From a virus, in IMG/VR virus record IMGVR_UViG_3300010368_000131, positions 1-21,843 of that record: DNA of 21,843 bases; one strand, written 5' to 3'. Below, in pieces: positions 5,813-10,931 of this stretch (position 1 is the first letter of the stretch; each line of letters begins with the position of its first letter). Made by a program: the position numbers and the translations under genes. A model generated the notes under the pieces. It was given only the letters and a program-made list of their open reading frames with translations, did not search any database and had not been told where the DNA came from.

Positions 5813-6098
5813 TGGATGCGGGACTGCGGTGGTCGATAACGACAAATACTGCTGGGATTGTGCGAACACTATACTGGTCGATAACGCACGCGAGAACATG
5901 AACTACCTTTGGGAGTTAATGCTTGGCGAATACCTGCCAGCTAAAGACAGCAAGGAAGCTGTCAAGCTCATGGAATCGCGTATGCGTGACATATTCGAGG
6001 CGTGTATTGATGAGAATAAAGAGGCGCTATTTCGCGCTGTAAACCGAGTGCTTCTTGAAGAGGCATTTCAAATCAAGGAGGGTCACAATGAAATCTAG
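5802..6098 (+). CDS. Small zinc-ribbon protein
   Basis: 98 aa from the ATG at 5802, with GGAGGG at 5788-5793 as ribosome site. The first 20 residues hold two CxxC-type knuckles (CNGC at 3-6 and CWDC at 17-20), a typical short zinc ribbon. The rest is helical and charged (ENMNYLWELMLGEYLPAKD; KEAVKLMESRMRDIFEACIDE). A nucleic-acid or protein adaptor role is the usual inference for such phage proteins. It lies 11 nt into the ERF gene start, implying coupled expression with the recombination genes. Confidence 0.7.
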   Translation: MKCNGCGTAVVDNDKYCWDCANTILVDNARENMNYLWELMLGEYLPAKDSKEAVKLMESRMRDIFEACIDENKEALFRAVNRVLLEEAFQIKEGHNEI

Positions 6099-6713: not shown

Positions 6714-6974
6714 ATGGAATACGATAACACTAATCGCGGGGTTTTATTTCGCAACGATAAGAAGGAAACTGAGAAGCACCCAGACATGACCGGAAGCCTA
6801 GACGTGGATGGGGTTGAATACTATCTATCTGGCTGGACAAAGACGTCGAAGCAAGGCAAGAAGTTTCTAAGTGTATCTGTATCACCGAAGCAGAAGGTGG
6901 CACAGCAACACGTACAGAAAGCCAAGCAGCAGTTTGAGCCAGAGGAGGACTTTAGTGATGACATCCCATTCTGA
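6714..6974 (+). CDS. Small protein with SSB-like acidic C-terminal tip
   Basis: 86 aa, two bases after the ERF stop, with AGGAGAG just upstream. The N-terminal part contains NRGVLFRNDKKETEKHPDMTGSLDVDGVEYYLSGW and TSKQGKKFLSVSVSPK, an OB-like beta pattern I associate with a small conserved phage protein family of unknown function. The last eight residues are DFSDDIPF, nearly the DDDIPF tip by which bacterial SSB recruits its partners. From this I infer a single-strand-binding or SSB-mimic role with the ERF protein. It is shorter than true SSB (about 170 aa). The next gene starts inside its last 17 nt. Confidence 0.75.
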   Translation: MEYDNTNRGVLFRNDKKETEKHPDMTGSLDVDGVEYYLSGWTKTSKQGKKFLSVSVSPKQKVAQQHVQKAKQQFEPEEDFSDDIPF

Positions 6975-7158
6975 CATCGGGAAGTTCATCAGGGTTCTTC
7001 AGGCAGAGCGCGGTATGACAAACGAACAATTGGCAGATCATTTAGGTGTGTCACGTCAAACGGTGACCAACTATCGAAACGCTAGTGATATGAAAATATC
7101 AACGTTTGTCAGTGTATTGAGTGTTCTAGGTGCTAAGCCTGGGGATTTCTTTAAGTAA
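6958..7158 (+). CDS. XRE-family (Cro/CI-type) DNA-binding regulator
   Basis: 66 aa from the ATG at 6958, with GAGGAGG at 6942-6948. The frame runs further upstream but only inside the previous gene. A lambda-repressor-type helix-turn-helix covers nearly the whole protein: IGKFIRVLQAERGMTNEQLADHLGVSRQTVTNYRNASD (7-44), with the recognition helix near SRQTVTNY, and a last helix ISTFVSVLSVLGAKPGDFF. No oligomerisation domain is present, as in Cro-size regulators. It is followed by a 306-nt non-coding gap with inverted repeats, so autoregulation or control of the next operon is plausible. Confidence 0.85.
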   Translation: MTSHSDIGKFIRVLQAERGMTNEQLADHLGVSRQTVTNYRNASDMKISTFVSVLSVLGAKPGDFFK

Positions 7159-7166
7159 AAAGAGGT

Positions 7167-7182
7167 GCCCCCCGAAGGGGGC
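7167..7182 (+). terminator. Strong GC hairpin, possible attenuator rather than classical terminator
   Basis: GCCCCC (7167-7172) pairs perfectly with GGGGGC (7177-7182) around a CGAA loop, 9 nt after the regulator stop. It lacks a following U-tract (TTGCAC follows), so intrinsic termination would be weak. The C arm could instead pair with the G7 run at 7200-7206, giving two mutually exclusive structures. A termination or RNA-stabilising role is inferred. Confidence 0.4.
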
Positions 7183-7432
7183 TTGCACTGGAGGGGTGCG
7201 GGGGGGTATCATTGATGTGCGAAGCAATGATGTAGTAAGTTTACCACACAGTTAACCAACCACAACATTGAATCGCAGAGATTAACGGGCGTTAGGCCGA
7301 GGAACCTGAGAACCTCGGAGCGGAGTTGACCCTCTCCATGATGCGCCCCTAGATGCCGAGAGCAGGTAGCTAGGATAGATGTCAAGATTCGATACGTTAA
7401 TCAAAGCTCGTCATTACTAAATTTGTTATTGT

Positions 7433-7446
7433 TGTCCGATAGGACA
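7433..7446. promoter_or_regulatory. 14-bp palindrome, candidate operator
   Basis: TGTCC-GATA-GGACA is a perfect two-fold symmetric site 18 bp before the next ATG (7465). It is near the right size for a small XRE-type dimer, and such a protein is encoded 275 bp upstream. I found no second copy close by and no clear promoter hexamers around it. Confidence 0.4.
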
Positions 7447-7464
7447 TCAAAAGGGTAAGTGTGG

Positions 7465-7638
7465 ATGGATATTTATGAAAGGATTGTTAATGGTATGAAA
7501 GATAAAGATACAGATTATGTCTCTATCTTAGTTACCGAAGATGGTATTGATCTATTCACATCGTTAGATTCAGAGGACTTAGGTAACTTGTTAACCGAAA
7601 TCCTTATGATGCAAAAGGAAGCAAGTACAGTTCATTAA
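7465..7638 (+). CDS. 57-aa acidic protein, unknown
   Basis: ATG at 7465 with AAGGG about 8 nt upstream; first gene after the structured gap. The product begins MDIYERIVNGMKDKDTDYVS, followed by a beta-like ILVTEDGIDLFTSL and an acidic helix (DSEDLGNLLTEILMMQKEA), suggesting a beta-hairpin with flanking helices. No family recognised. It precedes the winged-helix gene by 12 nt and probably shares its transcript. Confidence 0.6.
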   Translation: MDIYERIVNGMKDKDTDYVSILVTEDGIDLFTSLDSEDLGNLLTEILMMQKEASTVH

Positions 7639-7650
7639 GCTGGAGGGCGT

Positions 7651-7842
7651 ATGAATCAGAATCAACAAATCCTAAAACACATTCAAGAGCATGGCTCTAT
7701 CAATCCCCTAATGGCGCTAGAACGATATGGGTGTATGCGCCTGGCTGCACGTATATCTGAATTACGTGAGAAGGGACACAAGATAGAAACCAGAATCATG
7801 AAGTCACATAACAATAAAGCGTATGCGGAGTATTACCTATGA
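7651..7842 (+). CDS. Small winged helix-turn-helix protein
   Basis: 63 aa with CTGGAGGG before the ATG. The sequence follows a well-known short phage wHTH pattern: ILKHIQEHGSINPLMALERYGCMRLAARISELREKGHKIETRI. Helix 1 is followed by S-NP-ALE-YGCMRLAARI as the recognition region, and then by a beta-wing around GHKIETRIM. Proteins of this type sit in replication and recombination operons of many Gram-negative phages; their DNA targets are mostly unknown. The TGA overlaps the next ATG (ATGA). Confidence 0.8.
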   Translation: MNQNQQILKHIQEHGSINPLMALERYGCMRLAARISELREKGHKIETRIMKSHNNKAYAEYYL

Positions 7843-8129
7843 ATGCCACGGACATAATGAAAATTGCCAGTGAGTTTGGCTTTAAAATTATTGACGAATT
7901 TGATACTTGGGCTAGATCAGATTGTGATGATTACCGTTTTAATGAGGAAAAATCTAAAGCGCTATACACCGATGGAGACATGGGAGTCGCAATCATTCAG
8001 CTAAGCGAGATTGATGCAGATGCTGGTCTTATGGTTGAGTTGGTTGATTGTAGATATTGTAATTTTGATATGTTGCAACTCGGCTGTCTGCACTTTTTAC
8101 TTCTGGAATCACAAGATGATATTGAATAA
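7839..8129 (+). CDS. 96-aa acidic protein, unknown
   Basis: Starts by an ATGA overlap at 7839. The product has a helix (DIMKIASEFGFKIIDEFDTWA), an acidic loop (RSDCDDYRFNEEKSK), a probable sheet (GVAIIQLSEIDADAGLMVELVDC) and a C-terminal helix (MLQLGCLHFLLLESQDDIE). Net charge is clearly negative and it has four cysteines without a CxxC pair. No family recognised. It overlaps the following gene by 14 nt. Confidence 0.6.
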   Translation: MNATDIMKIASEFGFKIIDEFDTWARSDCDDYRFNEEKSKALYTDGDMGVAIIQLSEIDADAGLMVELVDCRYCNFDMLQLGCLHFLLLESQDDIE

Positions 8130-10911: not shown

Positions 10912-10931
10912 GCCCCTTCGGGGGCTTTTTT
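10912..10931 (+). terminator. Rho-independent terminator ending the plus-strand block
   Basis: GCCCC (10912-10916) and GGGGC (10921-10925) form a 5-bp GC stem around a TTCG loop (the very stable UUCG tetraloop), followed by six T's (10926-10931). It lies 10 nt after the last plus-strand stop. The T-tract overlaps the stop codon of the converging lysozyme gene (10930-10932), so read-through in either direction should be limited. Confidence 0.85.

Follow-up and report, generated by a model that had tools for sequence, protein, structure and literature searches.

The noncoding gap at positions 7159–7464 (306 nt) appears to encode two RNAs, one per strand: a small RNA of ~75 nt on the minus strand and, on the plus strand, a folded RNA, here called module A. 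The window, by which we mean the whole stretch of DNA analyzed, is an IMG/VR virus record of 21,843 nt. From comparison of related sequences, we put at somewhat better than even (roughly 0.55) the probability that the gap works as a control locus of two RNAs, in which the small RNA would repress genes of the phage itself and would lie next to a structured leader. The presence of two RNAs, and the assignment of the terminator hairpin to the strand opposite the leader, went unnoticed in the original prediction for this DNA.

Results

Setting and conservation of the gap

In the open reading frame (ORF) list of the window, most genes between ~2631 and 10902 lie on the plus strand, and the packaging, tail, and lysis genes lie on the minus strand; we label genes early or late by where they lie and what they probably do. 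A terminator-like hairpin with a TTCG loop is found at 10912–10925, where plus and minus genes converge. The gap is bounded on one side by the gene at 6958–7158, whose 66-aa product is a Cro/C1-type helix-turn-helix (HTH) protein, the Cro-size regulator that had been recognized earlier. On the other side is a 57-aa ORF (7465–7638, plus strand) in an interchangeable slot behind module A, the close relatives of which make up cluster 2 of clusters 0–15. A winged-helix gene at 7651–7842 (plus strand; Pfam HTH_39, PHROG 4973) lies 3' of the RNA locus in the phage group of the window and 5' of it in other groups.

The original prediction held that no ORF or tRNA fits the gap and that no known family matches it. 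ARAGORN finds no tRNA or tmRNA gene in the window, in agreement with the tRNA part of this statement. The ORF part needs qualification, as a 58-aa minus-strand ORF (7209–7385) overlaps the gap, although single-base indels between relatives and the pattern of base pairs argue against its being coding. Rfam 15, the search that had been suggested, gives no match in the whole window at the gathering score and none in 6900–7700 even at E ≤ 10. Two relatives that were also scanned, L258 (which carries module B, described below) and L064, yield chance-level matches, the best score in a relative being STnc100 at 17.9 bits against a cut-off of 47, aligned mainly at the terminator. The fold z-scores of the gap are −2.45 (plus) and −3.82 (minus).

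An Erf protein search provided a starting set of 22 loci, and nine of them, on eight contigs besides the window, align with the gap over 284–307 nt at 82.7–95.8% identity. In the six more distant of these contigs the identity of the gap is 82.7–89.8%, compared with mostly 69–75% in the flanks (one 148-nt stretch reaches 82%, and some flank alignments extend through the gap). By these alignments, conservation in the more distant relatives is higher in the gap than on either side of it. Its first ~90 nt recur in the alignment of L006, L011, and L018, whose remainder is unrelated, indicating that the gap is modular. Blastn of module A and of the alternative module B against named phages returned no matches, and the only match to the window stretch, 37 nt long (E 0.01), fell outside the gap. 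When 84,980 species genomes were scanned with exact patterns in two rounds, the first gave no matches and the second four, all rejected as chance.

A predicted small RNA on the minus strand

Comparison of relatives predicts a minus-strand small RNA of ~75 nt (7231–7157) composed of three hairpins and a U-run. SL1 (AUCAUUG/CAAUGAU) occupies 7208–7231, and SL2 (GCAC/GUGC) occupies 7185–7199 and presents a C-rich loop, CCCUCCA at 7195–7189, which is the proposed seed. The SL3 terminator hairpin (7167–7182) is followed, after a 5-nt spacer, by a T-run at 7161–7157. All of the sequence features named in the original prediction are present, including this GC hairpin, seven G residues at 7200–7206, further inverted repeats, and a TGTCC/GGACA palindrome at 7433–7446; the reading of two of them has changed. 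The CGAA hairpin had been described as lacking a U-tract, which is correct for the plus strand, whereas on the minus strand a T-run follows, so the element can be taken as a minus-strand terminator. The idea that the G7 run and the same C arm form two exclusive structures was dropped, the run not being conserved in relatives.

The candidate promoter of the small RNA has a −10 box, TAAACT, at 7238–7243 (minus strand) and a weak −35 element, TTGTGG, read by eye at 7265–7260; neither is in the output of the promoter scan of the window. The −10 box ends 6–7 nt from the SL1 dyad in 46 of 54 relatives, a spacing that was not imposed. The boxes in these 54 loci read TATACT (22), TATAAT (14), TAAACT (7), and TACACT (4), with two others and none in five; five of 59 regions were left out of this set for want of a dyad, and L083, L097, L128, and L140 were given a wrong one. 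Wobble pairs in the SL1 dyad across the 54 relatives are valid only on the minus strand in 11 instances and only on the plus strand in one. GTTAC/GTAAC repeats, seen by eye in L083, L097, and L119, cluster near the small RNA promoter and are possibly operator sites.

A minus-strand intrinsic terminator lies 103–206 nt upstream of module A (one at 396) in 62 of the 70 loci with enough sequence. The terminator of the window, with its five T residues after a 5-nt spacer, is weaker than that of most relatives, and under the stricter terminator script the window itself is unscored, being one of the eight of 70 without a terminator. Of 63 regions examined with a spacing of 5–8 nt imposed, 59 of them carrying module A and four module B, 57 allow the full small RNA to be drawn; of the six dropped, four had no −10 box plus hairpin and two had no usable T-run. 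The close relatives L002 and L009 have no usable T-run. Lengths in relatives are 75–105 nt, apart from two ends that look misplaced (L128 and L112), and the three-hairpin fold is found in 55 of 56 small RNAs, a count that excludes only L128 (142 nt). The strands cannot be told apart by folding energy, the minus strand being the more stable in 20 of 56. The C-rich motif is present in all 57 small RNAs, compared with a mean of 40.4 and a maximum of 47 in shuffles, and it is unpaired in 56 of them. The comparison of relatives supports a predicted small RNA made from the minus strand, running from SL1 to the terminator beside the Cro-like gene.

Module A, a folded RNA on the plus strand

A pattern for module A, run over the gathered loci, gave at least 114 matches (some contigs being counted repeatedly), of which at least 75 are distinct; six chance matches were rejected. 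One of the source scans contributed 80 of 102 stretches among the matches listed. Alignment A2 contains 71 of the 75 distinct sequences, four having been left out as too short. In the window, the core defined by covariation occupies 7280–7402 on the plus strand, with extensions to 7455. It is built from P1 (8 bp, 7280–7287/7395–7402), P2 (5 bp, 7288–7292/7343–7347), P3 (6 bp, 7297–7302/7313–7318), P4 (4 bp, 7322–7325/7334–7337), P5 (5 bp, 7348–7352/7370–7374), and P5b (3 bp, 7355–7357/7365–7367). A 3' hairpin, GTCC/GGAC (4 bp, 7434–7445), is the weakest helix, with 79.4% of cells paired.

Covariation among homologous gaps had been named as the check on a structured RNA here, and among the 71 distinct relatives it is strong. 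Both sides have changed in 24 of 35 pairs, double-changed cells number 266 against 68.8 in shuffles, and five of five measures exceed all 500 shuffles. Cells are paired at 95.3%, compared with 36–43% when partners are slid by 1–3 columns, and matched left/right changes sum to 109 on a tree built from unpaired columns only. Covariation thus shows the fold of module A. Conserved G·U pairs assign its strand: columns 28–80 are U·G in 64 of 70 sequences and valid on the plus strand in 68 of 70 but on the minus strand in four of 70, and columns 92–104 are G·U in 68 of 71 and valid in 71 of 71 versus three of 71, so that the plus strand is the strand of module A. Many of the unpaired nucleotides are invariant. 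A group I intron, whose core contains a conserved P7 (R/S elements), was considered when a P7-like motif was noticed, and was rejected because the P7-like helix varies freely (seven of eight pairs double-changed) and there is no Rfam match.

Several features around the core are less certain. A possible pseudoknot between TGATG (7339–7343) and CATCA (7445–7449) adjoins the Shine-Dalgarno sequence; it is 94.2% paired and covaries modestly (two of five pairs double-changed), and its last pair competes with P2. Upstream, a helix P0 (7230–7236/7262–7268, plus strand) is weak in the window and reaches 9–13 bp in the best relatives, with a mean score of 16.9 over 53 loci against 12.6 (S.D. 3.2) for mismatched partners; P0 is also an inverted repeat on both sides of the minus-strand promoter. 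A possible plus-strand promoter consists of TTGCAC (7183–7188), 18 nt, and TATCAT (7207–7212), which would place the start at ~7219. This candidate is absent from the output of the window promoter scan. Relatives have TAnnnT ahead of the dyad together with TTG in 32 of 54 cases; the script took the best spacing among 15–19, and the elements overlap SL2 and SL1, so this count provides no independent proof.

Position, downstream genes, and distribution of the modules

The conserved block continues beyond the fold into AAAAGGG and AAGTGTGG (7449–7465, plus strand), which runs to the start codon, ATG at 7465 or GTG at 7459. Among the downstream proteins listed, 29 of 39 start 80–87 nt after a fixed position in the core. 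The 77 distinct proteins encoded downstream of module A fall into 16 clusters without mutual blastp links at 1e-3, a diversity that argues against a riboswitch. The gene slot behind modules A and B looks like an accessory-gene site, and some of its occupants are, at a guess, counter-defense genes.

In some relatives the place of module A is taken by a second folded RNA of ~290 nt, module B, members of which include L006, L011, L018, L046, L189, L253, and L258. A pattern scan for module B gave 22 stretches, 16 of them distinct, and two more are included in alignment A4 (n = 18). Its helices covary, and in most cases the plus strand fits better than the minus. A long-range TTTAGAGGAC/GTCCTCTAAA match in module B was seen by eye.

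Homologues of the window gene at 8116 provided 80 loci, of which three were already known and 77 were searched with the R1 model. Module A was found in 66 of these, three of them cut by a contig end; many of the 66 sit in contigs already in the module A set. Seven of the remaining 11 carry module B (some nearly identical), and four carry neither, namely L181, L227, and L250, which start near a contig end, and L233. This last locus has a gene often seen behind module A or B plus ~2 kb of upstream sequence, yet neither module was detected. Searches of whole records showed that 11 of 15 hold exactly one module A, the other four holding module B. A weak module A match (2799–2974, 53.6 bits) in L014, a distant relative, could extend the family.

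Plus-strand terminator-like sites are scarce in the first 2 kb behind module A (two over 56–72 loci), and 16 lie at 2–3.5 kb, including seven in one 250-nt bin. Ten such sites fall in two bins at 2.25–2.75 kb, possibly marking the end of an operon or a target of antitermination. Eight plus-strand terminators lie in the 250 nt before module A (73 loci), and 17 minus-strand terminators lie in the 2 kb behind it.

The seed loop and predicted target sites

In the window, the best predicted target of the small RNA loop is the ribosome-binding site of the winged-helix gene (CTGGAGGG, 7637–7653, plus strand; −19.0 kcal/mol). The sites of the genes at 7651, 2898, 5648, and 5802 contain CTGGAGGG or TGGAGGG, to which the loop is complementary, and Erf at 6088 has a weaker predicted match. 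The 21 early sites pair better than the 15 late sites (mean −10.5 versus −7.1 kcal/mol, one-sided p = 0.013). The module A operon has AAAAGGG as its own site, which the seed matches poorly (−7.6 kcal/mol).

Any C-rich loop will match some Shine-Dalgarno sequence. The comparisons between small RNA classes, whose counts exclude the small RNA locus itself, involve loci related by descent, so the counts are not independent and the tests overstate certainty. With that reading, TGGAGGG is present at 23 of 206 plus-strand sites in the ATCATT class (seeds CCCUCCA or similar) and at five of 494 in the other four (ATCTTC 1/185, GTCT 1/164, ATCTTG 3/71, CCCCC 0/74). AAGGGAG (GTCT 21/164, ATCTTC 11/185, CCCCC 5/74, ATCTTG 4/71, ATCATT 3/206) is clearly raised only in GTCT, ATCTTC being no higher than CCCCC or ATCTTG. 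ACGGGAG occurs at six of 74 sites in the CCCCC class, whose small RNAs have CUCCCGU, versus three of 626 elsewhere, a match that rests on about two phage groups. Measured by duplex energy, only two of the five classes (ATCATT and ATCTTC) pair best with their own sites; for GTCT, ATCTTG, and CCCCC, other classes pair equally well or better. By 7-mer matches, the own seed exceeds the mean of the other classes in 32 of 39 genomes, and in 29 of 39 after correction for the number of seed words.

Agreement between seed and site is clearest for the winged-helix gene: with classes grouped by seed, its site has TGGAGGG in 8/12 versus 0/35, ACGGGAG in 6/10 versus 0/37, and AGGGAG in 10/19 versus 5/28. 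For Erf the corresponding values are 6/10 versus 1/25 (TGGAGGG) and 4/17 versus 1/18 (AGGGAG), and the SSB and exonuclease sites show no agreement with seed class. Minus-strand sites also match (9/32 in the ATCTTC class; 7 of 12 genomes), so the set of targets may exceed the early genes. Taken together, the sequence comparisons suggest that, from one phage group to another, a change in the loop tends to go with a change in the Shine-Dalgarno sites, although some measures do not show this.

Discussion

In the mechanism that we favor, a minus-strand small RNA of ~75 nt would be made from SL1 to the terminator, and its CCCUCCA loop would pair with the Shine-Dalgarno sequences of several mRNAs of the same phage, keeping ribosomes off. 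The matches and the co-variation of seed and target suggest an RNA repressor of early genes; most likely, once accumulated, it would block translation of a subset of phage genes. Module A, from its position and the attached Shine-Dalgarno sequence, would be the compact 5' leader of the operon starting at 7465. If the plus-strand promoter is placed correctly, the two promoters are convergent, and the 5' ends of the RNAs overlap by ~12–20 nt, so that each RNA may limit the other. Transcripts reading through from upstream genes would carry the complement of the whole small RNA, which could restrain it while early transcription is strong. Further roles considered for module A are control of translation via the pseudoknot, RNA protection, and antitermination. 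The original prediction had offered a leader, attenuator, antisense, or anti-termination RNA; comparison of relatives points to a structured leader on the plus strand and a small RNA on the antisense strand, and the terminator count does not favor anti-termination.

Two other readings of the minus strand need to be weighed. The minus-strand RNA could act in cis as an antisense regulator confined to the plus-strand leader, in the manner of ColE1 RNA I or P22 sar, with the Shine-Dalgarno match a by-product. In its favor, the RNAs are read from opposite strands and overlap in their 5' regions, and the small RNA is found next to module A and module B alike. However, the overlap is short, the proposed seed falls outside it if the plus-strand RNA starts at the candidate promoter, and the seed tends to co-vary with the phage's own ribosome-binding sites, and we consider this explanation unlikely. 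More doubtful still is the view that there is no small RNA, the dyad serving instead as an operator on the DNA, bound by the Cro-like protein encoded next to it, and the hairpin as an insulating terminator. That the HTH gene adjoins the dyad, which covers the possible plus-strand promoter, fits such an arrangement. Yet wobbles in the dyad favor a minus-strand RNA stem by 11 to 1, the −10 box stands at a fixed distance, SL2 and the C-rich loops are kept, and the gene on the HTH side of the dyad differs between phages.

For module A, the most serious competitor to a leader is a free-standing RNA (a ribozyme, a protein decoy, or a host-directed RNA) with the gene behind it incidental, a reading that we regard as having a modest chance of being correct. 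The 16 unlinked gene clusters and the invariant unpaired nucleotides would suit it, whereas the extension of the conserved block into AAAAGGG and AAGTGTGG, the narrow +80 to +87 range of starts in most of the listed examples, and the contact of the possible pseudoknot with this same part speak for a connection to the downstream gene. Processive antitermination at an early promoter, as for HK022 put, is somewhat less probable. Module A does sit directly behind a possible promoter and ahead of an operon with a variable first gene, it can be replaced by another folded RNA, and terminator-like sites are found at 2–3.5 kb. But there are only two such sites on the plus strand within the first 2 kb, and this scarcity led us to downgrade a put-like function; put RNA, moreover, is ~70 nt with two stem-loops in the available part of its description (PMC9378689), as against six helices in module A. 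Identity with put itself is ruled out by size and fold.

With these alternatives weighed, the proposed two-RNA control locus can be set beside known systems, the papers cited here being available in part. Phage λ OOP is a familiar small regulatory RNA of a phage, and large structured RNAs such as GOLLD and ROOL have a link to phages. Staphylococcus RsaA is a small RNA whose C-rich stretch pairs with Shine-Dalgarno sequences (PMC3961350). The exposed C-rich stretch here invites comparison with such RNAs in mode of action, but ours is phage-encoded, it is proposed to target genes of the same phage, and its seed varies between phage groups. In phage T4, RegA has ~30 mRNA targets, and RegA and RegB act on many early mRNAs, at their initiation regions (PMC3014915); there the phage factors are proteins, whereas here an RNA is proposed. 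The phage RNAs c4 (P1/P7), P22 antisense RNA, VpdS, and PreS have particular phage genes as targets, or else genes or small RNAs of the host (PMC12197685). These too are phage-encoded regulatory RNAs, some of them cis-antisense, in contrast to the many own ribosome-binding sites proposed here, and no phage RNA with many own targets was found in the available part of that source. Like HK022 putL and putR, module A would be a cis-acting folded RNA behind an early promoter, but it differs in having six helices over ~166 nt and few plus-strand terminators nearby. Relative to GOLLD and ROOL, described as large structured RNAs with a conserved fold (PMC2864571, PMC12286853), module A is smaller, lies in a leader position beside a small RNA, and has no Rfam match. 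RNAs of the ColE1 RNA I type are short, end at an intrinsic terminator, and lie antisense to a longer regulatory RNA over its 5' portion; here, too, the strands are opposite, and the overlap hinges on the candidate plus-strand start. We found no comparable locus in the literature searched, coverage of which was partial.

A broader proposal is correspondingly more tentative, and we judge it possible but well short of even odds. The small RNA would repress the phage's own genes globally, as an RNA counterpart to RegA of T4; its seed and the cognate Shine-Dalgarno sites would co-evolve into translation codes private to each phage group, and the unrelated RNAs A and B would be interchangeable parts with the same leader function. 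Modules A and B are two folded RNAs without an Rfam match, module B having been scanned in one member. If the proposal is correct, a group of uncultured phages relies on an RNA, not a protein, to tune its own genes, and the paired changes in seed and ribosome-binding sites would be a natural record of a small RNA and its many targets evolving together.
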